A stretch of DNA of 64,000 bases from NCBI GenBank assembly GCA_016931965.1, contig JAFGDT010000041.1, forward strand, positions 82,851 through 146,850, read 5' to 3'. The stretch's first letter is position 1. Each line of letters begins with the position of its first letter. The notes below the pieces were generated by a model. The model saw only the letters and a list, made by a program, of their open reading frames with translations. It did no database searches and was not told the origin of the DNA. A program made the translations under genes and the position numbers. This stretch comes from a bacterium. GTDB lineage: Bacteria > Zhuqueibacterota > QNDG01 > DSAB01. Positions 44,156-64,000 of the stretch are shown here, one piece after another.

Positions 44156-44563
44156 TTATTTACTAAATTTTCGGTATACAGCGACAAGCACTTGTTGAGG
44201 AAGTTCATTCGCCAGTTTGGTCGGCACGTCATTCGGTCCAAACTGATCTTTTCCCTTGGGTTCAATTAAAAGTCTGATGGCTTCCATCAATCTGGCCAGA
44301 TCAATCCCTTTCGGACAGCGTGATTGACAGGTAAAACACGAAGCGCACAGATAAAGTGTTTTTGAGTGGATAACTTCATCTTGAAGTCCCATCTGCACCA
44401 TGCGAATAATTTGATTGGGGAGAAGGTCCATCTCAAATGCAAATGGACACCCTGCCGAACAGCGCCCGCACTGATAGCATTTATAGACATCCTGACCGGA
44501 GAGTTCGCTCACCCGTTCAATGAACTGTTTTTCTTCTTCTCCGATTTTTAATTTGACACGCAT
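44156..44563 (-). CDS. hdrC: Heterodisulfide reductase subunit C-like
   Basis: 135 aa. Two [4Fe-4S] motifs: CYQCGRCSAGCPFAF near residue 34 and CASCFTCQSRCPKGI near 78. Soluble, no membrane segment. Precedes hdrB by 16 nt. Confidence 0.92.
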   Translation of the reverse strand: MRVKLKIGEEEKQFIERVSELSGQDVYKCYQCGRCSAGCPFAFEMDLLPNQIIRMVQMGLQDEVIHSKTLYLCASCFTCQSRCPKGIDLARLMEAIRLLIEPKGKDQFGPNDVPTKLANELPQQVLVAVYRKFSK

Positions 44564-44616
44564 TGTGAATCTCCATTTTTAAATGGAACGTCGTTTTACG
44601 ATCAGAGAGTTGTTCC

Positions 44617-46440: not shown

Positions 46441-46485
46441 CTTCTGTCCTAAAAATAATTTTTTTGAACTCTTGCAACGATAACC

Positions 46486-46983: not shown

Positions 46984-46984
46984 T

Positions 46985-48424
46985 TTATTGATCCTTCTCA
47001 AGTGGTTTATTTTGCGTGCGGGTATTCTTTCTGAGTCCCAGGACATCAAGTTCCCGTTTTACAGTCTGTACTTGAAAATGTTTTCCCATTTTCTCACTAA
47101 GTTTTTGCGTCAAGTGAGGAATACTGGACCGTGGGTGGTTGGCCCAGAGCAGAACAAGTTCTACTTTCTCATGATCATTGAGAGCCTCAACCTCTTCGGA
47201 AACGGCCGCTTCTGGGATTGGTTTCTCGATTCCTTTTTGAATGGATTCCAAAACCTGTTTTGTATCTCTGGCGATGGCCAGTTCTTCATTGGTTGGAATG
47301 ACCAATATTTTTATCTTTCCTGTGCTGATAACCGGATTATTTTTTTTGTTCTTCTTGGGATCGATTTGAATGCCAAACGATTCCATATTACCAAGTGATT
47401 GTTCACGCACATAACTCGAATGCTCCCCAATGCCCCCTGTAAATATAATGGCATCCACTTTTCCCAGTTCAGCCATATAGGCACCGATATATTTTTTAAC
47501 GGCATGACAATAAATTTCTAAAGCCAACTGATGTTGCGCACTTCCACGTTGAGCTTCTGCTTCGATTTCACGCATGTCGTTTGAGGTTGCGGTCAAACCG
47601 AGCATACCGCTGTTTTTATTCATAATCGCATCAATTTGATCTGTGGACAGATTTTCCCGCTCCATAATAAAAGGAACAAGCGCTGGATCGATATCTCCGC
47701 ACCGCGTTCCCATAATCAAACCTTCCAGCGGTGTAAACCCCATAGAGGTATCAATCGATTTCCCGCCATCCACAGCCGTAATGCTGGCACCATTACCCAG
47801 ATGACAGGTGATGAGTTTTAAGGATTTTAAAGGGGCATTGAGGAGTACCGCGGCCCTTTCAGCAACATAACGATGGGAAGTGCCATGGAAACCGTACCGT
47901 CGAATACCCAATTTTTGATACAGAGCATAGGGCAATCCATAAATATAGGCCTTGGGTGGAAGGGTTTGATGGAATGCGGTATCGAATACGGCAACTTGAT
48001 AAATTCCGGGCAATAATTTTTCACATGCCTCAATCCCTTTTAAATTGTGGGGATTATGAAGCGGTGCGAATTGAATACACTGTTGAATGGCTCCTTTGAC
48101 CTTTTCGGTGATGAGCACCGATTCGGAAAAGGATTCGCCGCCATGAACAACCCGATGACCGATTCCGTCGATTTCATCTTGATTCCTGATCACCCCATGT
48201 TGTGGATGAAGCAACATGGCAATTAAAATATTGATTGCTTCTTGATGATTAAAGACTTCCCGGATTTCCCGAATCGTGTTCTTTTCTTTCGGCTGATAAG
48301 AAATGATAGCATCGCTCGACCCGATTTTTTCCACCATCCCCTTTGCAAGAATACTTTCCTGTCGCATGTTGATAAGCTGAAACTTAACCGAAGAACTGCC
48401 GCAATTTAGAACAAGAATTCTCAT
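46985..48424 (-). CDS. ackA: Acetate kinase with C-terminal extension
   Basis: 479 aa against about 400 in typical enzymes. Core intact: VLNCGSSSVKFQL at the N-terminus, HRVVHGGE near residue 91, AVFDTAFHQTLP near 145, HLGNGASITAVDGG near 205 and the usual end PTNEELAIARDT near 380-391. About 87 extra residues follow, including a helical stretch (VELVLLWANHPRSSIPHL, then VKRELDVLG) that looks like a small helix-turn-helix or protein-binding domain. No phosphotransacetylase gene is in the window. Lies 9 nt behind the hydrogenase large subunit. Confidence 0.9.
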   Translation of the reverse strand: MRILVLNCGSSSVKFQLINMRQESILAKGMVEKIGSSDAIISYQPKEKNTIREIREVFNHQEAINILIAMLLHPQHGVIRNQDEIDGIGHRVVHGGESFSESVLITEKVKGAIQQCIQFAPLHNPHNLKGIEACEKLLPGIYQVAVFDTAFHQTLPPKAYIYGLPYALYQKLGIRRYGFHGTSHRYVAERAAVLLNAPLKSLKLITCHLGNGASITAVDGGKSIDTSMGFTPLEGLIMGTRCGDIDPALVPFIMERENLSTDQIDAIMNKNSGMLGLTATSNDMREIEAEAQRGSAQHQLALEIYCHAVKKYIGAYMAELGKVDAIIFTGGIGEHSSYVREQSLGNMESFGIQIDPKKNKKNNPVISTGKIKILVIPTNEELAIARDTKQVLESIQKGIEKPIPEAAVSEEVEALNDHEKVELVLLWANHPRSSIPHLTQKLSEKMGKHFQVQTVKRELDVLGLRKNTRTQNKPLEKDQ

Positions 48425-48433
48425 CTCTGTTTT

Positions 48434-49894
48434 TTAGTCTCTCCTGAGTTTCTGGATCAACTGATGCTGATGGTCAAAGATATGGATGATCAACGGCATC
48501 TGCCCGGGCAAAGTATGCGTTGCACACCCAAAACAGGGATCATAAGCACGAAAAGCCATTTCCACCATATTGAGAAGACCATCATTCACCTCGCCGTTTT
48601 GAATCAATCCCTGGGCTGCCTTTTTTACGGACATATTGATGGGAGCATTGTTATTCGTTGTACCGACAATCAGATTGGCTTCCTGTATGATGCCATCTGC
48701 ATCCGTCTTGTAGTGATGGTAAAGGGTGCCCCGTGGAGCCTCAACAACACCCACCCCTTCATCTGGTACATCTGTGGGAATCATACGATAGTCCGGACCT
48801 GTGATTTCGGGATCACTGACCAGTTCGACCCACCTTTCTGCAGCATAGAGCAGTTCAATAATACGGGCCCAATGCGTCGCCAGAGTCTGGTGTACGGGTT
48901 TCCCTCCCAATGTTTTGTACATGCGATCATGTTCTTCATTGGCGAGGGGTGTTGCCATACCATCAGACACATTGAGCCGTGAAAGCGGTGTAGCCTTGTA
49001 TACACCGCTCTCCGGCCCATCAACAAAACCTTTCCATCCAACTTTCTTCAGAAAGGGGAATTTGAGGTAGGACCAGGATTCAACATGCTCTTCAACATGA
49101 TTGAGATAATCAGCCGGTTTGAATTTGACAAATTCTTTTCCGTCAGGTCCAACCACGCGGATATCCCCATCATAAAAATTAACGTGATTATTCTCATCGA
49201 CCAAGCCCATGTTATAGGTTTCATGGGTGAATGTATCACTCAGGATCAGATCAACATACGCTTTATTTTTGAGGACGATATCATTAAAAAGCTGGATGGT
49301 AAATTTGGCAAACTCGACGGCTTCCAACCCCGCTTTTTTAATTTCTTCCTGTTCTTCTTCGATCATCCCTTTGCTCATACCGCCGGGAATCGCACCCACA
49401 GGATGGACTGCTTTACCCCCCATTTTTTTGATCAATTCGTGGCACATTCCTCTCAGACCAACAACCTTGCCTCCAATCTCTACGCCGACCTTATGAATAA
49501 TTCCCAGAATGTTTCGTTGCGCTTTTGGCGCATCAGGTCCCATGACAAAATCGGGCCCGGCGAGAGCATAAAAGTGTGTGGTGTGATCGGTTACATAAAA
49601 GATAGAATAGAGCAGTTCACGCAGCATCTTGGCTGTTCGCGGAATATCCATATGATACAATGCGTCGCAAGCTTTTGCTGAGGCCATCATGTGGGCTTCC
49701 GGACATACACCGCAAATACGTGGTGTGATGCGAGGCATCTCCTCGACGGGACGCCCCCTGCAGAACATTTCGAATCCCCTCAATTCGGGAACCTGCAGAT
49801 AGGCATCTTTTACATTACCTCCATCATCCAAAAATATTTCTATTTTACCATGTCCTTCGAGCCGGGTTATGGGATCTATTGTGACTTTCTTCAT
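48434..49894 (-). CDS. mvhA: [NiFe] hydrogenase large subunit (group 3, MvhA-like)
   Basis: 486 aa. Both nickel-binding motifs are present: RICGVCPEAH near residue 59 and DPCFGCATH near residue 450. About 25 residues follow the second motif, the tail expected to be cut by a maturation protease such as the one at 17850. No membrane anchor and no Tat signal on the small subunit, so a cytosolic H2-oxidising (or evolving) enzyme. Start overlaps the small subunit stop by one base. Confidence 0.92.
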   Translation of the reverse strand: MKKVTIDPITRLEGHGKIEIFLDDGGNVKDAYLQVPELRGFEMFCRGRPVEEMPRITPRICGVCPEAHMMASAKACDALYHMDIPRTAKMLRELLYSIFYVTDHTTHFYALAGPDFVMGPDAPKAQRNILGIIHKVGVEIGGKVVGLRGMCHELIKKMGGKAVHPVGAIPGGMSKGMIEEEQEEIKKAGLEAVEFAKFTIQLFNDIVLKNKAYVDLILSDTFTHETYNMGLVDENNHVNFYDGDIRVVGPDGKEFVKFKPADYLNHVEEHVESWSYLKFPFLKKVGWKGFVDGPESGVYKATPLSRLNVSDGMATPLANEEHDRMYKTLGGKPVHQTLATHWARIIELLYAAERWVELVSDPEITGPDYRMIPTDVPDEGVGVVEAPRGTLYHHYKTDADGIIQEANLIVGTTNNNAPINMSVKKAAQGLIQNGEVNDGLLNMVEMAFRAYDPCFGCATHTLPGQMPLIIHIFDHQHQLIQKLRRD

Positions 49895-50850
49895 TAAATC
49901 TTTCTCCCTAAAATGGAACTCGGTAAATTGAACCGATAAAAAGTGCCGACAGGATCGACAATTTGGCCGACAATTTCTTCAATTTCCTCTGGATCATCGC
50001 TGTCGACAATGGAAGCAATGGCTCCCGCCAATTTTCCCCCCATATCGGATATACCTTCAGCCGGCCCATAACATCCTCTGCATCCCAAATGGACCTGAGG
50101 ACAGAGAGCACCGCAGCCGGCCTGCGTGGCCGGCCCATTACAGATAATCCCTTGTTCGAGCAGACACTTCTCGGGATCGATGTTCTTGATCATATGCGGC
50201 CGTATAAACGCTTTCACCCGCTTTTCCTCTTTGGTCTTAGGACATTCATCACAAACCGTTTTCGGATTGATACCGATGACGGATCCTTTCTCCGGTAAAT
50301 TCCCTGAAAGAATGGCTTCAATAACGGCCCATATCTGCTCTGCAACCGGCGGACATCCCGGCATTTTATAATCAACATCCACAACTTGATTTAATGTTCT
50401 GACATAATCAAACATTGCAGGCAATGTCAGTTTACCAGACTTGACCTTGGTTTCAGTTTGGGGTACTATTTTCTCAGGATTTCTAACCGAGGGTGAATCG
50501 TGATAGACATATTGAAAAATGGCTTCTTTATTCGTTAAATTAGCCAAACCGGGGATGCAACCTTCGCTTGCACAGGATCCATAAGCGACAAGGATCTTGG
50601 ATTTCTTTCTCAGCAATTCTGCAATATGAAGATTTTCCTCATTACGGATAACACCATTAAAAAGACAGACATCGATCTCTTTATCCGACATGGCCTCAAC
50701 ATCTTGATATTTTGTATCCATAACACAGGGACAAAATACCAAATCAACTGCTCTATCAACATCTAAAATTTTTTCTCTGATATCCAGAAAAGCAATTTCA
50801 CATCCTCCACAACTACCGGCCCAATAGATAGCAAATTTTGGTTTGGCCAT
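49894..50850 (-). CDS. mvhG: [NiFe] hydrogenase small subunit (MvhG-like)
   Basis: 318 aa. Proximal cluster Cys in YWAGSCGGCEIAF near residue 12, YGSCASEGCIPG near 90 and PGCPP near 165. Further Cys (CDECPKT, CLLEQGIICNGP, CGALCPQVHLGCRGCYGP) bind the medial and distal clusters. No signal peptide. First gene of the long leftward transcript. Confidence 0.92.
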   Translation of the reverse strand: MAKPKFAIYWAGSCGGCEIAFLDIREKILDVDRAVDLVFCPCVMDTKYQDVEAMSDKEIDVCLFNGVIRNEENLHIAELLRKKSKILVAYGSCASEGCIPGLANLTNKEAIFQYVYHDSPSVRNPEKIVPQTETKVKSGKLTLPAMFDYVRTLNQVVDVDYKMPGCPPVAEQIWAVIEAILSGNLPEKGSVIGINPKTVCDECPKTKEEKRVKAFIRPHMIKNIDPEKCLLEQGIICNGPATQAGCGALCPQVHLGCRGCYGPAEGISDMGGKLAGAIASIVDSDDPEEIEEIVGQIVDPVGTFYRFNLPSSILGRKI

Positions 50851-51243: not shown

Positions 51244-51306
51244 TAAGAAATTTTAATTATGATTTTAATTAATCAAAAAAAATCTAATATTTGGAGCAGT
51301 CAGAAT

Positions 51307-52197
51307 ATGGAAATCCAACAACTGAGAGGTTTTTACTACAGTGCGAAACTGGGAAGCTTAACAAATGCAGCGGACAAAATGTCCCTAACACAATCAGCCA
51401 TCAGTCAACAAATAAAGTCCCTTGAAATGGAATTGGGCATCAAATTATTCAATCGGTATGGTCCTAGAAAAGACATTACCCCTGATGGAGAAATCCTGCT
51501 CAATCTAATCACCCCACTCATTCAGGAAATAGAAATGCTCAAGGTCACATTTGAAGATCTGAAAGGCAATCAAAAGGGCCAATTGACAATTGCTGCAACA
51601 ACTGTATTGATCATGAATTATCTTCCATATATTATCCAAAAATATATCAAGAATCATCCGAATGTTCGATTAATCATTTTAGAGCATCGATGGAACGAAG
51701 TGGTTTCATTGGCTGAATCGGGTGAAGTGGATTTCGGCATTGCGCCCATTCAATCGATCCCTTCCAACTTAAGCTATATTGAACTCGAACCTTTTGATCG
51801 CATACTCATTACAAGTCTGAATCATCCGCTCTCAAGGAAAAAGGACATTACACTTCAAGATATTGCTCAATATCCTATCATCACCTATGAGAAAGGTCTT
51901 GTCCACAGGTCAGACTTGGATCACATATTTAAAGAAGCCAAATTAGAAATTGAAATCGTCATGGAAGCCACAAATGCGGAAACCATTAAAAGGTATGTCG
52001 AAATCGGCATTGGTGTTGCAGTCATACCCAAAATCGCTCTGCTGCCGACAAAAATGCTCCGTTTGCATGCCATCTCCGTTAATGAATTCTTTGGTAAAAG
52101 CTGTTATGGTGTAATTATCAGAAAAGGGAAATACATGACATCCTATGCAAAAGATTTTCTCGATCTTCTCAGTCCAAAGGTAAAGGATATTCTTTAA
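51307..52197 (+). CDS. LysR-family transcriptional regulator
   Basis: 296 aa. N-terminal winged helix (MEIQQLRGFYYSAKLGSLT, then KMSLTQSAISQQIKSLEMEL near residues 24-43) followed by a periplasmic-binding-like effector domain (GQLTIAATTVLIMNYLP near residue 92, SGEVDFGIAPI near 138). ATG 51307 (SD GGAG) gives the usual N-terminus. An upstream in-frame ATG at 51259 adds 16 non-family residues. Divergent from mvhGA, the classic layout for a regulator of the adjacent operon, and adjacent to the propeller operon on its other side. Confidence 0.9.
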   Translation: MEIQQLRGFYYSAKLGSLTNAADKMSLTQSAISQQIKSLEMELGIKLFNRYGPRKDITPDGEILLNLITPLIQEIEMLKVTFEDLKGNQKGQLTIAATTVLIMNYLPYIIQKYIKNHPNVRLIILEHRWNEVVSLAESGEVDFGIAPIQSIPSNLSYIELEPFDRILITSLNHPLSRKKDITLQDIAQYPIITYEKGLVHRSDLDHIFKEAKLEIEIVMEATNAETIKRYVEIGIGVAVIPKIALLPTKMLRLHAISVNEFFGKSCYGVIIRKGKYMTSYAKDFLDLLSPKVKDIL

Positions 52198-52604: not shown

Positions 52605-54053
52605 ATGAAAACCATTCTCATAGAAAAAGTCCTTCCACTGTCAGTCCCAGCAACTGTTTCACTCATTGGCTTCGTTTTCCTTTCCTGGTGGATCACTACG
52701 GATCCTGTAAAGCACCTGAATGAAAGCATCCCGGGGATGGACAACCGTTCGGCAGAAATGGCTGGATCCTCGGAAACCGTTATTTTCGATGCCTACTTTG
52801 AGCTTTTTGAGGGAGTGCCTGCTGAAAACAGTTTAGGTTCATGGCCCCGTTTCAGAGGCCGTTATTTTGACAACATCAGCAGAGAAGAAACCGAGATTCC
52901 GGATAGCTGGGGTGAAACCGGACCGACAATTGTATGGTCGCAGGACTTGGGCGAGGGGTTTGCGGCTCCTGTTGCTGCCAACGGCCGTGTCTACATTCTG
53001 GATTACGATGAAGAAAGAAAAATGGACATGCTGCGCTGTTTTTCATTGGCGGACGGAAAAGAAATCTGGAGGAGGGGATACGAGATCCACATTAAACGGA
53101 ACCACGGCATGTCTCGGACCATACCCGCGGTTGGGAATGACGTCGTCGTCACCATCGGCCCCCTGGGGCAAGTGATGTGTGTAAATGCGGAAACAGGCGA
53201 TTTCCTGTGGGGCATTGATCTGCATAAAGAATACGAAGCTGAAATCCCCTTATGGTATACCGGCCAATGTCCCCTGATCGATGATTCAATGGTTGTGGTT
53301 GCGCCCGGGGGTAAAGCGCTTATGATTGGTATCGATTGTAAAACAGGAGACGTTATTTGGGAAACACCAAATCAAAACAACTGGAAGATGTCCCATTCGT
53401 CCATCATGCCGATGACGTTCGCAAATACAAAGATGTACGTCTATCCAGCCATCGGTGGAATCGTCGGCGTGTCGGCAGAAGGAGAGACCCTCGGCAGCAT
53501 TCTCTGGGAAACAGCCGTTTGGAGCCCCCAGGTGATCGCACCGGCACCGCTCGTTCTGGATGATGGGAAAATCTTTTTTTCGGCCAGTTACGGAGCCGGA
53601 AGCGCGATGCTGCAAGTGGTCAAGGAGGGAGAACAATTCACCGTGGACACACTGGGGACCTACACACCCAAAGAGGGATTTTCAACCGAACAGCAAACAC
53701 CGATTTATTATCAGGGATACCTCTTCGGGATTCTGCCGAAAGATGCGGGTGCTTTGCGGACTGAATTCGCCTGTTACCATCCGGACGATCTGACCCAGCT
53801 GGTCTGGTCCAGCGGTAAAGAAAACCGTTTTGGTCTGGGCCCCTTTATCCTGGCCGACGGGAAATTTTTCATCCTCGACGACGTAGGCGTCTTAACGGTT
53901 GCGGAAGCCAATACGCGGGCATACAATCAGCTGGCTCAGTATAAAATTTTAGATGGGCAGGATTCCTGGGGTCCGATGGCCATAGTCAATGGCAGACTCC
54001 TTCTTCGGGATTCAAAGAAGATGGTCTGTATCGATCTCAACGCATCCTCGTAA
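52605..54053 (+). CDS. Membrane-anchored PQQ-type beta-propeller protein
   Basis: 482 aa. One N-terminal hydrophobic segment (about residues 11-31) with a following acidic region suggests an export/anchor sequence. The propeller starts at SWPRFRG near residue 79 and shows PQQ-type blades (DGKEIWRRG, ETGDFLWGID, KTGDVIWETP). No heme motif, and the catalytic acid/Ca-binding residues of quinoprotein dehydrogenases cannot be recognised, so it may be structural (BamB-like) rather than a PQQ enzyme. First gene of the + operon. No clear SD before the ATG. Confidence 0.8.
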   Translation: MKTILIEKVLPLSVPATVSLIGFVFLSWWITTDPVKHLNESIPGMDNRSAEMAGSSETVIFDAYFELFEGVPAENSLGSWPRFRGRYFDNISREETEIPDSWGETGPTIVWSQDLGEGFAAPVAANGRVYILDYDEERKMDMLRCFSLADGKEIWRRGYEIHIKRNHGMSRTIPAVGNDVVVTIGPLGQVMCVNAETGDFLWGIDLHKEYEAEIPLWYTGQCPLIDDSMVVVAPGGKALMIGIDCKTGDVIWETPNQNNWKMSHSSIMPMTFANTKMYVYPAIGGIVGVSAEGETLGSILWETAVWSPQVIAPAPLVLDDGKIFFSASYGAGSAMLQVVKEGEQFTVDTLGTYTPKEGFSTEQQTPIYYQGYLFGILPKDAGALRTEFACYHPDDLTQLVWSSGKENRFGLGPFILADGKFFILDDVGVLTVAEANTRAYNQLAQYKILDGQDSWGPMAIVNGRLLLRDSKKMVCIDLNASS

Positions 54054-54070: not shown

Positions 54071-55120
54071 ATGGAAAAACATGAAAAAAAATCAACCATC
54101 AGTCGAAGAAATTTCTTCGATAAAACGGCCAGGAAACTGACTGCCTTTGCAACAGGAATGGGTGCAGGTTTATTGTTGAAACGGTCTCGATCAGGATTCA
54201 GCTCTCAAGCTGCCGTAAAACCCAAATCCCAAACACAGCAACAAAATCCATATGAATACAATATTGATGATTTAAAAAAAGTCGATTCCGCACTCATCAC
54301 CTATCAAGAAATCGATCAGAACCACATCGATCTGGGTGAACTCCGCGGTCTGACAGTGGATTCTGACGACAACCTCTTTGTCACCGGAGACACCGTCATA
54401 CTGGGTTTCGATAAGACAGGCAACCGCATTAAAAAAATAGATCTGAATAGTCCTGCATACGGATTGACAATCGACAGTAACAATCAATTCTATCTCTGTA
54501 TGAAAGACCATGTCGAAATCATGGACGAAAACGGATTACAGGTCGAGGAGATGCACAGCCTCGGAGAACAGGCCTATCTGACATCAATCGCTCTGTCCGA
54601 TCAATACATTTATATGGCCGATGCGGGGAATCGGGCCGTATGGCAGTTCAGCAAATCGGGTATGTTGCTGAAACGTTTCGGAGAAAAAAATCCCGAACAG
54701 GGGATTCCCGGCCTGGTGATTCCCAGCCCTTACATGGATGTGGCTGTCGATGACAGCGGGGATATTTGGGTGGCCAACACGGGACGGCATTCTCTTGAAA
54801 AATACAATGCGAAAGGAGAATTGATCACCCGATGGGGAACAGCCTCCATGCGGATTGAATACTTTTGCGGATGCTGCAATCCCACCCATTTTGCCCTTCT
54901 CCATGACGGCTCCTTTGTCACCAGCGAAAAAGGGCTCCCCAGAGTCAAAATTTATAACAAAGAGGGTGCATTTCAAACAGTTGTGGCTGAACCGGCTCAG
55001 TTCGATGAAGGCACAGTCGGGCTTGACTTGGCTGTCGATTCGCAAAACCGCATCTACGTGCTTGATCCAAAAAGAAAATCCGTGCGTATCTTCTCTCAAA
55101 TGGCGTTATCCTTAGAATAG
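54071..55120 (+). CDS. Tat-exported NHL-type beta-propeller protein
   Basis: 349 aa. Twin-arginine signal ISRRNFFDK near residue 11 followed by a hydrophobic stretch. NHL-like blades (LRGLTVDSDDNLFVTG, YMADAGNRAVWQFS, VAVDDSGDIWVANTGRHSL). A Cys cluster FCGCCNPTHFALL near residue 263 followed by SEKGLPRVKIYN is a recognisable conserved feature of this family and may bind metal or form a disulfide. Exported folded, consistent with a cofactor acquired in the cytoplasm. 17 nt behind the first propeller. Confidence 0.82.
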   Translation: MEKHEKKSTISRRNFFDKTARKLTAFATGMGAGLLLKRSRSGFSSQAAVKPKSQTQQQNPYEYNIDDLKKVDSALITYQEIDQNHIDLGELRGLTVDSDDNLFVTGDTVILGFDKTGNRIKKIDLNSPAYGLTIDSNNQFYLCMKDHVEIMDENGLQVEEMHSLGEQAYLTSIALSDQYIYMADAGNRAVWQFSKSGMLLKRFGEKNPEQGIPGLVIPSPYMDVAVDDSGDIWVANTGRHSLEKYNAKGELITRWGTASMRIEYFCGCCNPTHFALLHDGSFVTSEKGLPRVKIYNKEGAFQTVVAEPAQFDEGTVGLDLAVDSQNRIYVLDPKRKSVRIFSQMALSLE

Positions 55121-55130: not shown

Positions 55131-55379
55131 ATGAAACCAAAACAGATCTGCAGACGCACCTTCATAAAAAAGACAACGCCCTATCTCTTTTTCACCGCCG
55201 TAATTGTGGCTCCCGGTTTGATCACCCTGAAAAATCACAATAAAAAGGGGACAGAACAGACGAATGGTTCGTCAAGTCCGTGTCTCACCTGTTCATGGCT
55301 CTCTGAATGCGACCTGCCGGAAGCAGTTCATCTCAAACAAAAATCGGCAGCAATCACTGAAAATCCAACGGTGAAATAA
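55131..55379 (+). CDS. Small Tat-type Cys-containing protein
   Basis: 82 aa, unrecognised. N-terminus CRRTFIKK followed by a hydrophobic helix (residues about 17-32) looks like a Tat signal or anchor. The short exported part carries three Cys (CLTCSWLSEC near residues 50-59). It sits between two other Tat substrates with 10- and 12-nt gaps, so it is probably a real subunit of the same system rather than a spurious frame. Confidence 0.6.
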   Translation: MKPKQICRRTFIKKTTPYLFFTAVIVAPGLITLKNHNKKGTEQTNGSSSPCLTCSWLSECDLPEAVHLKQKSAAITENPTVK

Positions 55380-55391: not shown

Positions 55392-55958
55392 ATGAAAAAA
55401 GAAAACGACAAAAAAATAGATCGACGTCAATTTTTCCGGAGTGGCACCCGGACAGCGGTGATTGTGGGTTTGGGCGGGCTGACGGCCCATGCGGCAAATC
55501 AGGCGACGGCAAAAGACACAGTATGGCAGATCGATCCCAATCTTTGTGTCCAATGCGAACAGTGCGCTGAAAATTGTGTTTTGTCACCTTCTGCTGTGAA
55601 ATGTGTGCACATCTACGATATGTGCGGCTACTGCGACCTCTGCAGCGGTTATTTTGAACCCAACACAGATGAACTCAACACAGGGGCGGAAAATCAGCTC
55701 TGTCCCACAAGTGCGATCACAAGAACATTCATCGAAGATCCCTATTTCAAATACGATATCGACGAAGAGAAATGCATCGGATGCGGGAAATGTGTCAAGG
55801 GATGCGGTGCATTCGGTAACGGTTCTCTGCAGCTTCAGGTGCGGCACGACCGATGTGTCAACTGCAACCAGTGTGCCATCGCCATCGCCTGCCCGGCGGA
55901 TGCGTTTCGACGGGTTCCCGCAGATCATCCCTATCTGTTGAGGGGCTATGATATCTGA
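55392..55958 (+). CDS. Tat-exported polyferredoxin (NapG/NrfC-like)
   Basis: 188 aa. Tat motif DRRQFFRSG near residue 10, then Ala-rich cleavage region. Cys residues for about four [4Fe-4S] clusters: CVQCEQCAENC, CGYCDLC with a later C-P, CIGCGKCVKGC, and CVNCNQCAIAIACP. Periplasmic electron carrier expected to dock on the NapH/NosR-like membrane protein encoded next, with which it overlaps by 11 nt. Confidence 0.87.
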   Translation: MKKENDKKIDRRQFFRSGTRTAVIVGLGGLTAHAANQATAKDTVWQIDPNLCVQCEQCAENCVLSPSAVKCVHIYDMCGYCDLCSGYFEPNTDELNTGAENQLCPTSAITRTFIEDPYFKYDIDEEKCIGCGKCVKGCGAFGNGSLQLQVRHDRCVNCNQCAIAIACPADAFRRVPADHPYLLRGYDI

Positions 55959-57270
55959 TCTGATAAGACACGACCAAATTACCAGAAAATGGACTGTGGT
56001 TCTTTTACTCTCTATTTTGGTCTGCTCAATTCCCACGCAAATCCATTCACAAATCCAACGATTTCCCAAACCGGAATTTGAATCCGGCCATGTGGTTCCC
56101 ACACCCACAACGCCCCATCCCCGCCAGGATATTTACGAATACATTGATGTGGCTGTGCTGATCATCGCTCTGTCAACGGCTTCCTATCTGGCATTGAAAA
56201 AAAGATCCCGCAACGGGATTTTCATGCTGAGCCTCTTTTCCCTGCTCTATTTCGGTTCCTGGAGAAAAGGCTGTGTCTGCGCGATTGGATCCATACAGAA
56301 CATCTCTCTGGCCCTGTTTGACCGGACCTATGTGATTCCGATCACGGTCATTGCATTTTTCACGATTCCCCTGTTATTTACATTATTCTTCGGACGCACG
56401 TTTTGTGCGGCGGTCTGTCCTCTGGGAGCCATTCAGGACGTGGTGATCCTGAAACCGGTAAAAGTGGCAGCCTGGCTCCAGAAAGTACTCGGTTTCATCC
56501 CCCACATTTACCTCGGTTTGGCCGTTCTCCTGGCTGCTTATGGAGCCGATTTTATCATCTGCCGCTACGATCCGTTTGTCGGACTGTTTCGATTTGATGC
56601 CAGTTTTCTCATGCTCCTGTTTGGGGCCGTTTTATTGATTGGCGGTATCTTCGTCGCCCGTCCTTATTGCCGATTTCTCTGCCCCTACGGGTTGATTTTA
56701 AACTGGATATCCCGCTTATCAAAACATCACGTGACCATTACCCCGACCGATTGTATCCAGTGCCGGCTGTGCGAGGATTCCTGTCCGTTCGGGGCCATTC
56801 TGCCGCCGACACCTGAAAAAGCGCCGGAAGCGCGCTCCGTGGAACACAAGCGCTTGGCCATTTTACTTGCACTATTACCTGTTCTCATAATCGGAGGAGC
56901 CTGTCTGGGATCCCTCCTTCACACACCCCTTTCCCAGATACACAACACCGTTCAGCTGGCCGAAAGGGTCAGGCTTGAAGAGCTGGGTAAAATTCAGGAT
57001 ACTGTAATAGAGAGCGAAACATTCCAACAGTCGGGCAAACCGGTGGAACAACTGTACGGTGAAGCAGCTTTAATCAAAAATCGATTCATAAAGGGCAGCA
57101 CCTATTTGGGGGGATTTATCGGATTGGTGTTCGGCACGACGCTCATCGGTCTTTCAATAAGAAGAAAACGTCGAGATTATACTCCTGATCGGGGAACCTG
57201 TCTCAGTTGCGGACGCTGTTTTGCCTACTGCCCTGTCGGTAAAAAGGAATCAAAAGAAGATGAAAAATGA
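55948..57270 (+). CDS. NapH/NosR-like membrane iron-sulfur protein
   Basis: 440 aa. Cleavable-looking N-terminal segment, then about six to seven membrane helices. Conserved paired motifs CAAVCPLGAIQD near residue 152 and CRFLCPYGLIL near 240, plus CVCAIG near 110. Two ferredoxin-type clusters: CIQCRLCEDSCPFGA near 270 and CLSCGRCFAYCPVGK near 420 at the C-terminus. No FMN-binding domain of full NosR. Expected to move electrons across or along the membrane between quinol or cytosolic donor and the exported ferredoxin. Overlaps the next gene by 11 nt. Confidence 0.85.
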   Translation: MISDLIRHDQITRKWTVVLLLSILVCSIPTQIHSQIQRFPKPEFESGHVVPTPTTPHPRQDIYEYIDVAVLIIALSTASYLALKKRSRNGIFMLSLFSLLYFGSWRKGCVCAIGSIQNISLALFDRTYVIPITVIAFFTIPLLFTLFFGRTFCAAVCPLGAIQDVVILKPVKVAAWLQKVLGFIPHIYLGLAVLLAAYGADFIICRYDPFVGLFRFDASFLMLLFGAVLLIGGIFVARPYCRFLCPYGLILNWISRLSKHHVTITPTDCIQCRLCEDSCPFGAILPPTPEKAPEARSVEHKRLAILLALLPVLIIGGACLGSLLHTPLSQIHNTVQLAERVRLEELGKIQDTVIESETFQQSGKPVEQLYGEAALIKNRFIKGSTYLGGFIGLVFGTTLIGLSIRRKRRDYTPDRGTCLSCGRCFAYCPVGKKESKEDEK

Positions 57271-59005
57271 GCAGGAAAACATGAATCAAAAATCAGAAGA
57301 AACAAGGGATCGGAAAAAATTTGGATATCAAATTGCCCGGTCTGTGGCCGTGGTCTCGGGAATCTTCATGCTGATTTTCTCGATCCTCGTCCTGGCCAAT
57401 TATTTTCAAACCAAGACAACGGATCCCCTGAACAGCCCGGCTCTGGAAACATTGATGGGCCAGATGGAGGAGAGACCGGACGATCAGGCATTGAAAGAAC
57501 AGATCCGGGCACTGGATTTATTAGCCAGAAAAGCCTACTTTACAACCCAATGGCAGATCCGGACTGGAGGCTATCTGATCTTCGGCAGTTTTATTGTCTT
57601 CATCGTTTCACTGAGAATCATGGGACATATGAAATCCAAATTGCCCGTTGTCGGAGAAAAACCGGTGAATGTGTGGGAATCGGCTGGGTTGACCAGAAAA
57701 CGGATGGCTATTACCGGTTTTTCGATGGCCATCATCTCGATTCTCATCGTGATCCTTTCCCACAGTGAACTGGAAGAAATCCAATTCCGCATTGATGAAG
57801 TCATGGACGAGGCGGGATTAACCGATTCGGCATATCCGAACGATGAAATACTGCGCCAGAATTGGCCCGGTTTCCGGGGACCCTACGGTACAGGCATCGC
57901 CTCGTTTGACAATGTGCCGACAGAGTGGGATGGGCCGAGCGGACAAAATGTGCTTTGGAAAACCGAAATACCGCTTCATGGGATGAATTCCCCGATCCGA
58001 TGGGACAACCGGTTGTTTGTTTCAGGAGCCGATGAAACGCGGCGTCAGGTCTACTGTTATGATACGGATACCAGTGAAATGCTATGGCAGAGAGATGTTT
58101 TGGATGTCCCGGGATCGACAGACGAAATTCCCGAAGTATCCTATGACACCGGTTATGCGGCTCCCACGATGACGACAGACGGAGAACGTGTATTTGCCAT
58201 CTTCGCAAATGGGGATCTGGTCTGTTTCGACTTCGAGGGAAATCAGATCTGGGCGATCAGTCTCGGTATCCCACAAAACATTTATGGTTATTCCTCTTCT
58301 TTAATCATCTATCAGAATCGGCTCATTGTCCTTTTTGATCAGGAAACGGGTGGTTATCTTTACGCATTTAACACCCAATCAGGCAGAATGGAGTGGCAAA
58401 CATCCCGTGAAAACATGATGACCTGGGCCTCCCCTATTTGTGTCAACACAGGAAACCGGTTCGAAATCATTATTAATGCCAATCCGGCAGTCGCATCATA
58501 CGATCCGTCCACTGGCAGAGTATTATGGTCTATCGAAGGCATGACCGTAGACGCAGCCCCCTCGGTTGCCTATGCGGACGGATGGGCTTATGCCGTAAAC
58601 GAATATGCTTTTCTGTGGGCGATCAAACTCGAAGATCCGCCCCAGATCGGATGGGAAAACATTGACTACCTCTCCGAAATTTCAAGCCCCGTAGCCAATG
58701 AAAAATTTCTTTTCGTTGCCACCAGTTATGGAGATCTCATCTGCTTTGACGCAAAAACGGGAGATCGGTACTGGGTCGAAAGCTTCGATCATGGATTCTA
58801 CTCCTCCCCTATTCTGGTGCAAGACAAAGTCTATGTCATGGATTACGAGGGTGTAATGCAAATCTGTTATGCCGATGTGGAATACAGACCGATCAGTCAT
58901 CTGGAACTCGGTGAAGCTTCATTTTGTATTCCCGCCTTCGACGACAACCGGATTTTCATCCGCGGCGACACCCATCTTTACTGTATCGGTCATGAGGATG
59001 AATAA
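57260..59005 (+). CDS. PQQ-type beta-propeller with three N-terminal membrane helices
   Basis: 581 aa from ATG 57260 (an ATG at 57281 is also possible). Three hydrophobic helices near residues 26-48, 103-120 and 155-175, then a propeller beginning NWPGFRGPYGTGIAS near 202. Blades show DTSEMLWQRD, QSGRMEWQTS, STGRVLWSIEG and KTGDRYWVES. It therefore looks like a propeller held at the outer face of the inner membrane. Central gene of the operon, between the NapH-like protein and the NuoEF fusion. Confidence 0.82.
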   Translation: MKNEQENMNQKSEETRDRKKFGYQIARSVAVVSGIFMLIFSILVLANYFQTKTTDPLNSPALETLMGQMEERPDDQALKEQIRALDLLARKAYFTTQWQIRTGGYLIFGSFIVFIVSLRIMGHMKSKLPVVGEKPVNVWESAGLTRKRMAITGFSMAIISILIVILSHSELEEIQFRIDEVMDEAGLTDSAYPNDEILRQNWPGFRGPYGTGIASFDNVPTEWDGPSGQNVLWKTEIPLHGMNSPIRWDNRLFVSGADETRRQVYCYDTDTSEMLWQRDVLDVPGSTDEIPEVSYDTGYAAPTMTTDGERVFAIFANGDLVCFDFEGNQIWAISLGIPQNIYGYSSSLIIYQNRLIVLFDQETGGYLYAFNTQSGRMEWQTSRENMMTWASPICVNTGNRFEIIINANPAVASYDPSTGRVLWSIEGMTVDAAPSVAYADGWAYAVNEYAFLWAIKLEDPPQIGWENIDYLSEISSPVANEKFLFVATSYGDLICFDAKTGDRYWVESFDHGFYSSPILVQDKVYVMDYEGVMQICYADVEYRPISHLELGEASFCIPAFDDNRIFIRGDTHLYCIGHEDE

Positions 59006-59009
59006 CGCG

Positions 59010-61379
59010 ATGGATACCGACTCCAAAACAAGTGAATTGAATCTCGACGAATTGGACGATATCGTCGAGAAAATCGGGCACTCAAAAGAGCATGTCATCC
59101 CGATTCTCCAGGCCATTCAGAACCGCTACAACTACCTGCCTCAGGGAATGCTGCATCGGGTCTGTGAAATCACCGATATTACACCCGCAGATATCGTGGG
59201 CATATCCACATTCTACTCACAGTTCAGACATGTCCCGGTCGGTAAACACATCATCCGAATTTGTACGGGAACAGCCTGCCATGTGAAAGGGGCTGATCGG
59301 GTATATGATGCATTCATGCGCCATTTGCACATTGCAGAAAACCAGGATACCGATCCAGACGGTCTTTTTACACTGGAAAAGGTGGCCTGTCTCGGGTGCT
59401 GCACGATTGCCCCGGTCATTCAAATCAGCGGGGTTACCTACGGGCATCTGACACCGGATGGTGTTTCTGATGTCATCAAAGACTTTCTCGAACAGGAACA
59501 AACCGGTCAACAACCGCTGAAGAAGGGTAAGAAGCAGGTTGACGAGCAGTTGGGAGAAATGCGGATCGGATTGGGATCCTGTTGTGTGGCCAGCGGATCG
59601 GCCAAAATTCATCAGACTTTACTCGATTCGTTGGCCCAATCCAATGTCAACGTGAAGGTAAAACGGGTTGGGTGTGTGGGTATGTGCCACCAGGTTCCAC
59701 TCCTGGAAGTCAATATGCCCGGGCAGCCGGTTGCACATTATTCACACCTTCAGCAAGAGACCATTCAAAAAATCATTGATAAGCATATCAAACCGAAACA
59801 GTTTCGGAAGCGCATTCAAAACACCGTTTCCCGGTGGTTAGACAATCTCCTCACCGATGAAACATGGCAATCCGCAGCCAAGTATGCAATCGATTTCAGG
59901 GACCCCCCTGTTGCCGCATTTTTGGATCAGCAAAAACACATTGCCACGGAACATTACGGCACACTTGATCCACTGGACATGGATGAGTACAAAAAAGGAG
60001 ATGGTTTCAAAGCACTCGAAGACTGTCTTCACCGATCCTCTCCGGAAAAGATCATTGCATCCATCAGGCAAAGCGGGCTGAGAGGCCGCGGAGGGGGTGG
60101 CTTCCCGACAGGCCAAAAATGGGAGAGGGTTCATAAATCTTCAGGCAGCCAGAAATACATCATCTGCAACGGAGACGAGGGGGATCCCGGTGCTTTCATG
60201 GACAGGATGCTCTTGGAATCCTATCCCTTCCGCATCATTGAGGGGATGGCGATCGCGGCATTCGCCGTCGGGGCTTCTGAGGGTGTTTTTTATATCCGGG
60301 CCGAGTATCCCCTTGCCTTACAACGAATCAGAGAAGCCCTCCGTCAATGTCGAGAATTCGGACTGCTCGGGGAAAATATTCTGGGTAGTGGCTTTTCATT
60401 GAACCTCCGGATCATGGAGGGAGCCGGTGCATTTGTTTGTGGAGAAGAAACAGCCCTCATTGCATCGATAGAAGGCAAGCGCGGAATGCCGCGCATCCGT
60501 CCTCCTTACCCTGCCGAAGCGGGACTTTGGGGAGCTCCGACTCTGGTCAACAATGTAGAAACCTATGCTCAGGTCTCCTGGATCATGCGAAACGGTCCGG
60601 ATGCATTTGCCCAGATCGGCACTAAAAAGAGCAAAGGGACCAAAGTCTTTGCGCTTGCAGGTAAAATTGCCAGGGGCGGATTGATTGAAGTCCCTATGGG
60701 GATGACAATCCGGGAAATTGTCAACGATATTGGTGGCGGAATTGCGGGCGGAAAGCAGTTTAAAGCCATCCAAATCGGAGGACCCTCAGGGGGCTGCATA
60801 CCGGCACATCTGGCGGATACACCCATCGATTTCGAAGCGCTGCTCGATGTAGGCGCCATGATGGGTTCGGGAGGCCTCGTTGTTCTGGACGAATCGGATT
60901 GCATGGTTGATATCGCCCGCTATTTCCTGAGTTTCACGCAGGCCCAGTCGTGCGGCAAATGCACATTCTGTCGTGTCGGCACACGCCGCATGCTTGACAT
61001 TCTCGACCGGCTCTGTACAGGACATGGTCAAAAAGACGACGTGGACAAACTGGAGCATTTGGCCCACAAAGTCCGCCAGGGCAGTCTCTGCGGTCTGGGA
61101 AGAACAGCGCCGAATCCGGTGCTGACAACGATCAAATATTTCAGGGACGAATATGAAGCCCACATTGAAGGTAAATGTCCGGCAAAAAAATGTACGTCCC
61201 TCATCACCTATACCATCAACGACAATTGCATCGGCTGCACGAAATGCGCCCAGCATTGCCCCGTCGGTGCCATCCCCATGACGCCTTACGAAAAACATGT
61301 GATCGACAATGAAAAATGCACCCGGTGCGATACCTGCCGGAAAATCTGTGAATTTGATGCGGTTGACATAGAATCATAG
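59010..61379 (+). CDS. Fused NuoE-NuoF NADH-oxidising subunit
   Basis: 789 aa. Residues about 1-165 are a NuoE domain (CTGTACHVKGA, then ACLGCCTIAPV). About 185-260 is a second thioredoxin-like [2Fe-2S] domain (GSCCVASGSAK, then VGCVGMCHQVP). Then the NuoF core ([42 protein letters not shown]), SCGKCTFCRVG, and a C-terminal double ferredoxin (CIGCTKCAQHCPVGA, CTRCDTCRKICEF). Start ATG 59010 lies 4 nt past the previous stop; longer readings would overlap it heavily. Independent of the split NuoE/NuoF genes at 15527-17779. Should oxidise or reduce NAD(H) in the cytosol. Confidence 0.9.
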   Translation: MDTDSKTSELNLDELDDIVEKIGHSKEHVIPILQAIQNRYNYLPQGMLHRVCEITDITPADIVGISTFYSQFRHVPVGKHIIRICTGTACHVKGADRVYDAFMRHLHIAENQDTDPDGLFTLEKVACLGCCTIAPVIQISGVTYGHLTPDGVSDVIKDFLEQEQTGQQPLKKGKKQVDEQLGEMRIGLGSCCVASGSAKIHQTLLDSLAQSNVNVKVKRVGCVGMCHQVPLLEVNMPGQPVAHYSHLQQETIQKIIDKHIKPKQFRKRIQNTVSRWLDNLLTDETWQSAAKYAIDFRDPPVAAFLDQQKHIATEHYGTLDPLDMDEYKKGDGFKALEDCLHRSSPEKIIASIRQSGLRGRGGGGFPTGQKWERVHKSSGSQKYIICNGDEGDPGAFMDRMLLESYPFRIIEGMAIAAFAVGASEGVFYIRAEYPLALQRIREALRQCREFGLLGENILGSGFSLNLRIMEGAGAFVCGEETALIASIEGKRGMPRIRPPYPAEAGLWGAPTLVNNVETYAQVSWIMRNGPDAFAQIGTKKSKGTKVFALAGKIARGGLIEVPMGMTIREIVNDIGGGIAGGKQFKAIQIGGPSGGCIPAHLADTPIDFEALLDVGAMMGSGGLVVLDESDCMVDIARYFLSFTQAQSCGKCTFCRVGTRRMLDILDRLCTGHGQKDDVDKLEHLAHKVRQGSLCGLGRTAPNPVLTTIKYFRDEYEAHIEGKCPAKKCTSLITYTINDNCIGCTKCAQHCPVGAIPMTPYEKHVIDNEKCTRCDTCRKICEFDAVDIES

Positions 61380-61403: not shown

Positions 61404-62987
61404 ATGATCAATCTGAAAATAAACGGAAAACCGGTTCACATCACAGAGGGAAGTACCCTACTCCAGGCAGCCGAAAAACTGGGAATAGAGATCCCCACCC
61501 TCTGTCACCTGAACGGTTACGCACATTTTACATCATGCATGATCTGCATGGTCTGGGACAAAAAATCTGGTTCGTTTCATCCCGCCTGTTCGAAGCGGGC
61601 AGAAGAAGGGATGGATATTGAGACCGATTCGGATGAAGTGCGCTGGATCAGAAAAGAGACACTGGATCTGCTCCTCAGCGAGCACGTGGGCGACTGCGAG
61701 GCTCCCTGTCACCGTGTCTGCCCCGCCCACATGAACATTCCACTGATGATCCGACAAATCCAGAAAAGAGAATATCGAGACGCCTTAATCACCGTGAAGC
61801 AGGACATCCCGCTCCCGGCGGTCCTGGGGCGCATCTGTCCGGCGCCGTGTGAAAAAATCTGTAACCGGTCGCAAGTGGATACTCCCGTTCAGATCTGTCT
61901 GTTGAAAAGATATGTGGCCGATGTCGATCTGGCCAACAAAAATCCATACATGCCTGAAATAAAAAAATCGAGGAAGAAAAAAGTGGCCGTTATCGGATCG
62001 GGACCCGCCGGCCTGACAGCGGCTTACTATCTTCTCATCGAAGGTTACCAGTGTGTTTTGTTCGATGACCATCCGAAACCGGGCGGCATGCTCCAGTACG
62101 GCGTTCCCGAAGAAAACCTGCCCCGTTCTGTCTTGGATGCGGAAATCGATATCATACGCAAAATGGGCGCCGCATTCGAGCTCAACACAAAAGTGGATCG
62201 ATCTCTCTGGCAGAATACGATCACCAAAAAATATGATGCCGTCATTCTGGCAACTGGTCAGATTGATCCGAAATCAGCCCAAGACTGGGGCATCAGGGTA
62301 TCTGAAAAAGGCATCTGGATCAACAATCAGACTTTTGAAACCAGTGTACGGGGCGTTTTTGCCGGCGGCAACGCAGTCCGGTCGGGACAGATGGCCGTCA
62401 GGGCGGTCGCGCATGGCAAAGCGATTGCATACTCGGTACACCAATATTTACACAAGAAGGAAGTCGCCGGCCCGCCAAAACGATTCAATTCGCAAATCGG
62501 TAAAATGAGCGAGAAAGAAGCAAAGGGCCTGCTTCAGGAAACAGAAATCCTTTCTGATGAATCAATCGAAGTCAACACACAAACTGGACTTTCAGAATCA
62601 CAGGCTGGTCAGGAATCGAATCGCTGTCTCCACTGTGACTGCCGGAAACCGGAAACCTGCAAACTCAGGATCTATGCCGATCAATACGGTGCGGAACAAA
62701 AACGCTACCAGACAAGCGAAAGAAAAACCGTGGAGAGAATTCTGCAGCACGAGACCGTTGTTTATGAACCGGGGAAATGCATCAAATGCGGACGCTGTGT
62801 CCGTATCACGCAAAAGGCGGGCGAAAGCCTCGGCCTGACATTCACCGGACGGGGATTCAATGTGCGGATCGATGTGCCTTTTAACGATTCCCTCTCAAAG
62901 GCGCTTCTGAAAACAGCGGAAGCATGCGTGGAGGCCTGCCCGACAGCTGCGCTGGCTTTCAAAAATACGGAAGAGGAACAACGATGA
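61404..62987 (+). CDS. NuoG/GltD-like Fe-S flavoprotein without an NAD(P)H domain
   Basis: 527 aa. N-terminal [2Fe-2S] domain (LCHLNGYAHFTSCMIC, then ACSK), GltD-type cluster region (CEAPCHRVCPA, CPAPCEKICN), FAD motif VIGSGPAGLTAAYYLL near residue 195, and FAGGNAVRSGQMAVRA near 315. C-terminal Cys sets (CLHCDCRKPETC, CIKCGRC, CVEACP). In GltD/NfnB a GGGNVAMD NAD(P)H-binding domain of more than 100 residues lies between the ILATG and FAGG motifs; here only about 35 residues connect them. So it has FAD but no pyridine nucleotide site of its own, and would depend on the NuoEF fusion upstream (24-nt gap). Confidence 0.83.
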   Translation: MINLKINGKPVHITEGSTLLQAAEKLGIEIPTLCHLNGYAHFTSCMICMVWDKKSGSFHPACSKRAEEGMDIETDSDEVRWIRKETLDLLLSEHVGDCEAPCHRVCPAHMNIPLMIRQIQKREYRDALITVKQDIPLPAVLGRICPAPCEKICNRSQVDTPVQICLLKRYVADVDLANKNPYMPEIKKSRKKKVAVIGSGPAGLTAAYYLLIEGYQCVLFDDHPKPGGMLQYGVPEENLPRSVLDAEIDIIRKMGAAFELNTKVDRSLWQNTITKKYDAVILATGQIDPKSAQDWGIRVSEKGIWINNQTFETSVRGVFAGGNAVRSGQMAVRAVAHGKAIAYSVHQYLHKKEVAGPPKRFNSQIGKMSEKEAKGLLQETEILSDESIEVNTQTGLSESQAGQESNRCLHCDCRKPETCKLRIYADQYGAEQKRYQTSERKTVERILQHETVVYEPGKCIKCGRCVRITQKAGESLGLTFTGRGFNVRIDVPFNDSLSKALLKTAEACVEACPTAALAFKNTEEEQR

Positions 62988-64000
62988 AAACGGCTTTCAT
63001 GAAACAAATCGCTCTTGGCACAATGATCATCATGGGGATGATGTGCATCACATGTCAAAAAAGCAAAGAGGAACTCGCTCTTCAAGCCCCAGAAACTGGG
63101 GAATCCGAATGGCCGATATTCCGGGGAGACACCCGGCTCTCCGGTGTATCCAATGCCACCCTGTCCGATTCGCTCCGACTGCGCTGGACATTTCAAACGG
63201 AGGGTGAAATTAAATCCTCCGTTGTGATTGAGAACAGTACCGCTTATTTTGGATCGAGTGACGGCAATATCTATGCCTGCCGACTGGACAATGGCACTTG
63301 GGTATGGACTTTCAAAACCAATGGGGATGTGGAAGCAGCGCCGTTGCTGCTGGATGAAACCATTTATGTCGGATCATTAGACGGCACATTTTATGCGATT
63401 GACGCAATCAACGGAAGAGCAAAATGGAAGTACCAGACAGAGGGACAGATCACCGGTTCGGCCAACTGGTTCCCATCCAAAGACGGCCAGAAAAAATATG
63501 TTGTTTTCGGAAGCTACGACAACTTATTGCACTGTGTGGACAGTCAGACAGGTGTAAAAAAATGGACGTTCGAAACGGCAAGCTACATCAATGGATCTCC
63601 GGGTATTTTCGAGGAGAAAATTGTATTCGGTGGATGCGACGAACTGGTCCACACCGTTGAAGGCCAGTCCGGGGAAGAGATCGGTGCAGTTGATGTGGGA
63701 TCCTACGTCGCTGGTTCGGTAGCCGTCTCGGACCATTATGCATTTATGGGACATTACGATGCCAAGTTGGTCTGCGTGGATTTGGAAAAGGAACAAATCA
63801 AATGGGAATACGGCAATGAAGAGTCGGGTGACGCATTCTTTTCATCACCCGCAGTTGGAGAAAATGTGGTTGTCATTGGATCGAGAGACGGATCGGTCCA
63901 TTGTGTTGAGAAAGCATCAGGCCGGGGAATATGGCAATTTCGCACGAGACAAAACGTGGACAGTTCACCGGTGATATGCAACGGCCGGGTAATTGCGGGT
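62984..64000 (+). CDS. Exported PQQ-type beta-propeller protein (3' end outside window)
   Basis: At least 339 aa, truncated by the window edge. N-terminal hydrophobic signal (about residues 8-22) ending at a Cys (CITCQKS) that could be a lipoprotein site, although the lipobox is not canonical. Propeller from EWPIFRGDTRLSG near residue 43, with blades DNGTWVWTFKT, INGRAKWKYQTEG, QTGVKKWTFET and SGRGIWQFRT. BamB-like. Start overlaps the upstream stop (ATGA), so it belongs to the same operon. Confidence 0.82.
   Translation, partial: MKTAFMKQIALGTMIIMGMMCITCQKSKEELALQAPETGESEWPIFRGDTRLSGVSNATLSDSLRLRWTFQTEGEIKSSVVIENSTAYFGSSDGNIYACRLDNGTWVWTFKTNGDVEAAPLLLDETIYVGSLDGTFYAIDAINGRAKWKYQTEGQITGSANWFPSKDGQKKYVVFGSYDNLLHCVDSQTGVKKWTFETASYINGSPGIFEEKIVFGGCDELVHTVEGQSGEEIGAVDVGSYVAGSVAVSDHYAFMGHYDAKLVCVDLEKEQIKWEYGNEESGDAFFSSPAVGENVVVIGSRDGSVHCVEKASGRGIWQFRTRQNVDSSPVICNGRVIAG

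Follow-up and report, generated by a model that had tools for sequence, protein, structure and literature searches.

A widespread StnC/NfnA-type subunit that lacks the NAD(P)H-binding domain and is encoded with a BfuC-BfuB fusion and a NapH-like membrane protein

Introduction

Enzymes of the Bfu family combine a constant NADH/ferredoxin core with a variable third substrate (PMC9304861). What defines the core is a set of clusters missing from non-bifurcating NuoF relatives, among them B2 with its His ligand; 17 BfuB clades have no assigned function (PMC9304861). Among the members with solved structures are the NfnABC of Caldicellulosiruptor saccharolyticus (9bov), the StnABC of Sporomusa ovata, which includes StnC (8oh5 and 8oh9), and the NfnABC of Thermococcus sibiricus (9n5u). 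These Stn/NfnABC enzymes are transhydrogenases that connect NADPH to the bifurcating NADH/ferredoxin core. In Stn, electrons follow the path NADPH-FAD-C7-C6-C5-C4-C3-B1-FMN, clusters C1 and C2 in the FdhF-like domain lie off this path, the FAD is judged to be non-bifurcating, and K170, a ligand of C7, is described as "strictly conserved" in StnC (PMC10482914). A second relevant group is formed by NapGH, which serves periplasmic nitrate reductase as its quinol dehydrogenase module, and similar systems. NapH is said to pass electrons to NapG at the periplasmic side, although its exact role is disputed (PMC5928378, PMC6195509).

Here, we analyze a 64,000-nucleotide stretch of a bacterial contig (referred to as the window), in which one gene had been predicted to encode a GltD-like flavoprotein that has lost its NAD(P)H-binding domain. 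In the open-access papers that we searched, we found no description of the surrounding operon or of an Stn without its NADPH domain.

Results

The gene in question (61404..62987, + strand) starts with ATG and encodes a protein of 527 residues, here called the truncated subunit. At its N terminus is a NuoG/HydA-type [2Fe-2S] domain (Pfam Fer2_4, residues 1-76, 61404..61631, +), which corresponds to StnC cluster C4 and whose ligands C34, C45, C48, and C62 are conserved at 98-100% across truncated-subunit homologues. It is followed by a GltD-type Fer4_20 domain (Pfam, residues 98-178, 61695..61937, +), in which C98, C102, C106, C145, C149, and C153 are invariant in the family and K168, the equivalent of the C7 ligand K170 of StnC, is Lys in 46 of 54 homologues. 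The first part of the FAD Rossmann domain (residues 192-286, 61977..62261, +) carries the GxGxxG motif and has Asn238 at the position of the Arg that contacts flavin N5; the FAGG return strand and C-terminal FAD helix (residues 316-350, 62349..62453, +) have Asn where Asp usually follows FAGG. Between these two parts lies the site of the deletion (residues 286-318, 62259..62357, +). The C-terminal cluster region (residues 404-517, 62613..62954, +) contains the sets C408/C411/C413/C419 and C459/C462/C465/C512, which match StnC path clusters C5 and C3. This end is not a full two-cluster ferredoxin: the ferredoxin-like part holds the Cys residues for one [4Fe-4S] cluster (C459, C462, C465, and C512) plus the C408/411/413/419 set. 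No FdhF-like C terminus follows the C3-like cluster, since the chain stops at residue 527, and we saw no membrane-binding segment in the protein. The NuoG-like domains that the original prediction placed at the two ends are present; they are not additions, however, since StnC and NfnA have the same order of Fer2, GltD, and C-terminal clusters.

Between the end of the ATG motif and FAGG, there are 33 residues in the truncated subunit, compared to 194 in the NfnB encoded in the same window (10504-11904). The Pfam Pyr_redox_2 profile is covered at positions 1-109 of 291 only (residues 192-286), indicating that the NAD(P) insert is absent, whereas the window NfnB matches positions 2-291 and also Pyr_redox. 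An AlphaFold2 model of the single chain, computed without cofactors from a 49-sequence alignment (pLDDT, 91.7; pTM, 0.89), has one Rossmann domain and no second one: between strands 279-282 and 318-320, there is nothing but a short helix (289-294). The predicted loss of the NAD(P)H-binding domain is thus borne out by the residue spacing, the partial profile match, and the fold model. The same gap is short in all 54 full-length homologues (34 residues in 38 of them, 33 in 8, range 13-55), and it is therefore a family trait rather than a local sequence error. None of the homologues found beside the same genes has a full NAD(P)H-binding domain. The 54 homologues share ~40-56% identity and come from many phyla. 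Loss of the domain is a fixed trait of this family, spanning many unrelated bacterial phyla. Most homologues do come from metagenome assemblies, where frameshifts, misassemblies, or pseudogenes might be suspected. Such an artifact was rejected and has practically no probability here, considering that the frame is open, the deletion is common to 54/54 homologues from many phyla, the Fe-S Cys residues are conserved, and the fold is predicted with confidence.

The solved proteins closest to the truncated subunit by sequence are 9bov_A, 8oh5_C, and 9n5u_A, and the same three entries are closest by fold (Foldseek E values of 9e-45 to 2e-40, TM scores of 0.84-0.88 on the query). Against 9bov, the E value is 3.8e-98 with phmmer and 9e-45 with Foldseek, at a TM score of 0.86-0.88 on the query. 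The alignment covers 9bov residues 4-287 and then resumes at 427-674; the jump from 287 to 427 means that ~140 residues, the NADP(H) domain, have been cut out. Judged by sequence and predicted structure, the nearest relatives of the truncated subunit are the A-type subunits of the Stn/NfnABC transhydrogenases of the Bfu family. Membership in GltD/NfnB was rejected, as NfnB/NfnL matched the fold at a TM score of 0.42-0.45 only. Considering that the NADP(H)-binding domain is absent from the sequence, the model, and 54/54 homologues, we do not class the protein as a transhydrogenase.

We compared the cluster ligands to the electron path described for Stn. The Cys residues for the on-path clusters (C34/45/48/62, C98/102/106, C145/149/153, C408/411/413/419, and C459/462/465/512) are conserved at 98-100% in the truncated family. 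On the basis of these residues, the ligands of every Fe-S cluster on the FAD-to-FMN path are present: the NADP(H) end has been removed and the wire has been kept.

Directly upstream is a gene for a fusion of BfuC and BfuB (NuoE and NuoF). Its open reading frame spans 58869..61379 (+), with a likely start at 59010, as in homologues of ~786 residues. Pfam identifies Complex1_51K, NADH_4Fe-4S, and Fer4, with SLBB and Fer4_21 below the cutoff; the C terminus carries two [4Fe-4S] motifs, and the best PDB matches are the B subunits of NfnABC and Stn. Across 48 fusion homologues, the ligands of B1, B2, B3/B4, and BfuC are conserved at 87-100%. For B2, these are C678 (100%), C716 (87%), H765 (100%), C770 (100%), and C775 (100%), a His/Cys set that corresponds to C438, C476/T, H525, C531, and C536 of A. 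mobile. B1 (C695/698/701/741) and the eight Cys residues of B3/B4 are conserved as well. The BfuC part has a 2Fe-2S_thioredx domain at residues 63-205, in which C132, C137, C174, and C178 are conserved at 100%. A B5 cluster is not clearly present: in that region of the BfuB N-terminal domain, C239 and C269 alone are invariant and the sequence resembles StnB, for which no B5 cluster is listed (PMC10482914). Because the ligands of the Bfu core are intact in the fusion, the bifurcating center is most likely its FMN.

FAD-tuning residues are relaxed in the truncated family. The Arg that contacts flavin N5 (R201 in NfnB, R239 in StnC) is retained in 7 of 54 truncated homologues compared to 24 of 24 full-length relatives, and the FAD-ribityl Asp after FAGG is retained in 8/54 compared to 24/24. 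Mean pairwise identity in the truncated family is lower in the FAD domain (0.449) than in Fer4_20 (0.592); among the full-length relatives, the order is reversed (0.518 and 0.427, respectively). The GxGxxG motif of the FAD Rossmann fold is nevertheless present in 54/54 truncated homologues, and most members therefore probably still bind FAD, with the site under selection where it is present.

Two further homologues, L064 (8001-9062 of its locus) and L066 (2601-3662), lack approximately residues 180-352, which is the whole FAD domain, and retain the cluster Cys residues. Their BfuCB and downstream neighbors are the same as in the FAD-bearing loci, and neither genome contains an FAD-bearing copy of the truncated subunit. 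In a tree rooted on full-length StnC, L064 and L066 form one clade (100/100) nested within the truncated family; loss of the FAD domain therefore appears to be derived and to have happened once. In both proteins, K168 is replaced by Ile and the Fer4_20 domain has an extra Cys (LCERCRKPCETVC and LCDECKQPCETVC), which is possibly a substitute ligand. The FAD is best read as a relay that one lineage has come to do without, and a role as a second bifurcating flavin is unlikely.

The operon around these two genes also encodes membrane and exported proteins. In the window, it begins with a PQQ/BamB-like beta-propeller with an N-terminal membrane anchor (52605..54053, +), followed by an NHL-repeat propeller protein with an RR motif near its N terminus and a conserved CC (54071..55120, +) and a small protein of 82 residues with an RR motif and a Cys cluster (SPCLTCSWLSECDLP; 55131..55379, +). 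Counterparts of the small RR-motif open reading frame occur in the same place in L006, L012, L024, and L067, and in L009 and L022 the small protein is apparently fused to the N terminus of the polyferredoxin. Next are a Tat-signal polyferredoxin of NapG-like architecture with 17 Cys residues (55392..55958, +) and a NapH-like membrane protein (55948..57270, +). A membrane-anchored PQQ/BamB-like propeller (57221..59005, +) separates the NapH-like gene from the Bfu core, and the ATG of a PQQ/BamB-like lipoprotein (62984..64000, +, ending at 64156 beyond the window) overlaps the stop codon of the truncated subunit. A LysR-type regulator is encoded just upstream of the operon (51259-52197, +) and did not appear among the conserved neighbors.

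Gene order is remarkably constant across loci and runs from the PQQ-type propeller through the NHL protein, often the small RR-motif Cys protein, the Tat polyferredoxin, the NapH-like protein, the membrane-anchored propeller, and BfuCB to the truncated subunit and the propeller lipoprotein. In many loci, a glycosyltransferase, an ABC ATPase, and an FtsX-type permease follow. Downstream of the window (L072, 4027-6634), a glycosyltransferase, a Cys-rich small membrane protein, and an ABC ATPase are encoded in the direction of the operon; the permease that accompanies such genes in other loci has ~1,100 residues. Among adequately flanked loci, BfuCB is present in 43/48, the membrane propeller in 39/41, the NapH-like protein in 37/41, and the Tat polyferredoxin in 33/41; some of the 8 loci without the polyferredoxin and the 4 without the NapH-like protein are explained by assembly or simple open reading frame calling. 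The PQQ/BamB-type propellers, three of which are interleaved in the operon of the window, are conserved across phyla at two to three per locus. We looked in the propellers for Cys and His residues that mark redox proteins and found few Cys residues conserved per protein. A c-type cytochrome partner was rejected, as no CxxCH motif occurs in the propeller, NHL, or polyferredoxin families. No terminal reductase was identifiable in the operon.

The NapH-like protein has the four-helix module of NapH and contains two CX3CP motifs (C153/C157 and C241/C245) and two 4Fe-4S motifs (C269-C279 and C418-C428), and the Cys residues of both motif types are invariant in 39-43 homologues. Charge counts predict that the loops with the 4Fe-4S motifs, at residues 237-295 and 404-440, are cytoplasmic. 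The protein scores 51.9 bits against the curated NapH model TIGR02163, for which the cutoff is 213; among PDB structures, it had no fold match and, by sequence, ferredoxin-motif matches only. CxxCH was found in 4 of 44 NapH-like sequences. In the polyferredoxin, 16 of the 17 Cys residues are conserved at 97-100% in 35 homologues and the remaining one at 91%, and an RRxF-type motif is present in 29/36; it gave no match to the NapG model.

In total, we found 66 homologous loci in GTDB genomes, by a search that was seeded with short peptide patterns, favors near relatives, and drew mostly on metagenome assemblies. The carriers are metagenome-assembled genomes titled Aminicenantes, KSB1, Caldithrix, Planctomycetota, Bacteroidota, Verrucomicrobiota, Lentisphaerae/Victivallis, Kiritimatiellae, Spirochaetota, Poribacteria, and others, and the conserved gene order spans Aminicenantes, KSB1/Calditrichota, Planctomycetota, Bacteroidota, Verrucomicrobiota, Lentisphaerota, Spirochaetota, and others. 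Within the phylum of the window, 17 of 82 genomes encode the truncated protein and 15 encode a close BfuCB fusion, which adjoins the truncated subunit wherever the contig allows. One Bacteroidota genome (L041) carries the truncated system together with a full StnBC (GGGNTAMD, complete Pyr_redox_2), and in the phylum of the window, the genomes G015 and G016 pair it with another, differently arranged Bfu of the NADP type. The truncated system is therefore not simply a substitute for Stn. The full-length matches in G015 (contig C19, L100) and G016 (contig C1, L105) were rejected as Stn: there, Fer2 and a dicluster ferredoxin precede a complete GltD with GGGNVAMD, beside a BfuB gene.

Many electron-bifurcation and ferredoxin modules are packed into the window. 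A second Bfu-like set (12856-17320, -) encodes a NuoG/formate-dehydrogenase-type molybdopterin protein of 933 residues and a NuoF-like protein with C-terminal 4Fe-4S motifs, with NuoE-like sequence extending to ~17770, and it directly adjoins NfnAB (10504-12875). Genes at 36808-50850 (-) encode NiFe-hydrogenase subunits, an HdrA-like FAD/Fe-S protein, a CCG protein, POR subunits, and acetate kinase.

Discussion

We propose that the truncated protein acts as the third-substrate subunit in a bifurcating complex of the Bfu family that resembles Stn/NfnABC, has had its NADP(H) site deleted, and has a third wire leading to the membrane and periplasm. We give this reading an even chance. Since the NADP(H) site has been cut out and the wire kept, the third partner must be something else. 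The conserved NapH-like and polyferredoxin neighbors suggest, from gene order, where the wire goes, and on that basis we propose the NapH-like protein as the candidate partner of the truncated subunit. In this scheme, NADP(H) would be replaced as the third substrate by a protein partner. The FMN core would confurcate NADH and reduced ferredoxin, and the resulting mid-potential electrons would leave along the clusters of the truncated subunit, ending in most lineages at a non-bifurcating FAD. From there, they could pass outward, first to the 4Fe-4S domains that the NapH-like protein has on the cytoplasmic side and then to the Tat-exported polyferredoxin. The more ambitious proposal is that this is a new, widely distributed Bfu class that couples NADH/ferredoxin confurcation through a NapH-like protein to a periplasmic polyferredoxin and in which an ancestral NADP(H) flavoprotein has been dismantled stepwise; we advance it tentatively, as somewhat less probable than its opposite. 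The NADP domain would have been lost first, with the FAD domain following later in one lineage.

The original prediction described the protein as an internal relay fed by the NuoE-NuoF fusion, and this stands as the natural reading, because the NAD(P)H domain is missing and the adjacent fusion, with a full Fe-S chain between, is the only electron source in reach. It also suggested that the FAD might be a second bifurcating flavin, fed by NuoEF and splitting electrons into high- and low-potential branches. A GltD/NfnB-type FAD beside Fe-S clusters, with an unbroken GxGxxG record, does recall bifurcating NfnB. However, the N5 Arg is missing from this protein and from 47/54 homologues, Asp is similarly rare after FAGG, two genomes have lost the whole FAD domain with the rest retained, the homologous Stn FAD is judged non-bifurcating (PMC10482914), and the adjacent gene already encodes a complete Bfu bifurcation core. 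We therefore regard this suggestion as highly improbable and do not retain it. A somewhat less remote alternative, still unlikely, is that the FAD faces a small molecule or lipid such as menaquinone, making the truncated subunit itself the terminal reductase. In StnC, NADPH sits on the domain that is lost here, and the flavin may be exposed as a result; the GxGxxG motif is also invariant. Against this reading, FAD-less homologues occur with the same BfuCB and downstream neighbors, the residues of the FAD pocket are poorly conserved, unlike those of a catalytic site, and we saw no membrane-binding segment in the subunit.

Two other alternatives concern the membrane link. Electrons might flow inward, from a periplasmic donor through the polyferredoxin and NapH-like protein to a Bfu core that bifurcates to NAD+ and ferredoxin. 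Bfu reactions are reversible (PMC9304861), and the periplasmic propellers could be part of an oxidation system. This direction would need a periplasmic donor near -400 mV, however, and none is encoded. PQQ-type oxidations have a potential far too positive for such a donor, and we consider inward flow to have only a small chance of being correct. The complex could also be soluble, with a soluble acceptor, and the NapH-like and propeller genes mere neighbors. The link to membrane proteins is one of gene order, and some loci lack those genes; yet the order is shared by many phyla and the genes are interleaved around the Bfu core, so that we think a wholly soluble system doubtful.

The outward route to the membrane remains our preferred reading. 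The system is conserved in multiple phyla, and its operon supplies candidates for the third partner. The natural FAD-less variants offer a direct test of whether the FAD matters. If the membrane link is true, the system would allow low-potential electrons to reach the periplasm in many anaerobic lineages that are uncultured, and if the exporter reading is true, it would be a soluble-to-periplasm electron exporter.

Among known systems, NapGH, NosR, and PceC/RdhC share a membrane protein with two CX3CP and two 4Fe-4S motifs plus a Tat-exported polyferredoxin (PMC5928378). Unlike NapGH, the operon described here lacks NapA/NapB; no NapA-like gene was recognized in the operon of the window or as a conserved neighbor cluster across loci. 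The NapH-like protein also differs from NapH in having extra helices and the conserved C109 and C111. The fusion resembles the Bfu core of HydBC and BfuBC in its B2 Cys/His set and ferredoxin-binding clusters (PMC9304861), and no third substrate in Table 1 of that work clearly fits the truncated system. With NfnAB and GltD (the NfnB of the window and NfnL of P. furiosus), the truncated subunit has in common the GltD-type Fer4_20 and FAD fold; it lacks both the NADP(H) domain and the N5 Arg, which are present in NfnB. The NfnABC enzymes of C. saccharolyticus and T. sibiricus likewise differ from it in carrying a full NADP(H) domain. The closest counterpart is Stn of S. ovata, as the truncated subunit shares with StnC the order of Fer2, GltD-type clusters, FAD domain, and C-terminal clusters, the path ligands of C3-C7, a mostly retained K170 equivalent, and the same kind of bifurcating partner. 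It differs from Stn in lacking the NADP(H) Rossmann domain and the FdhF-like domain with C1 and C2, in not conserving the equivalent of R239, in having NuoE and NuoF fused, and in belonging to an operon that includes membrane and periplasmic genes.
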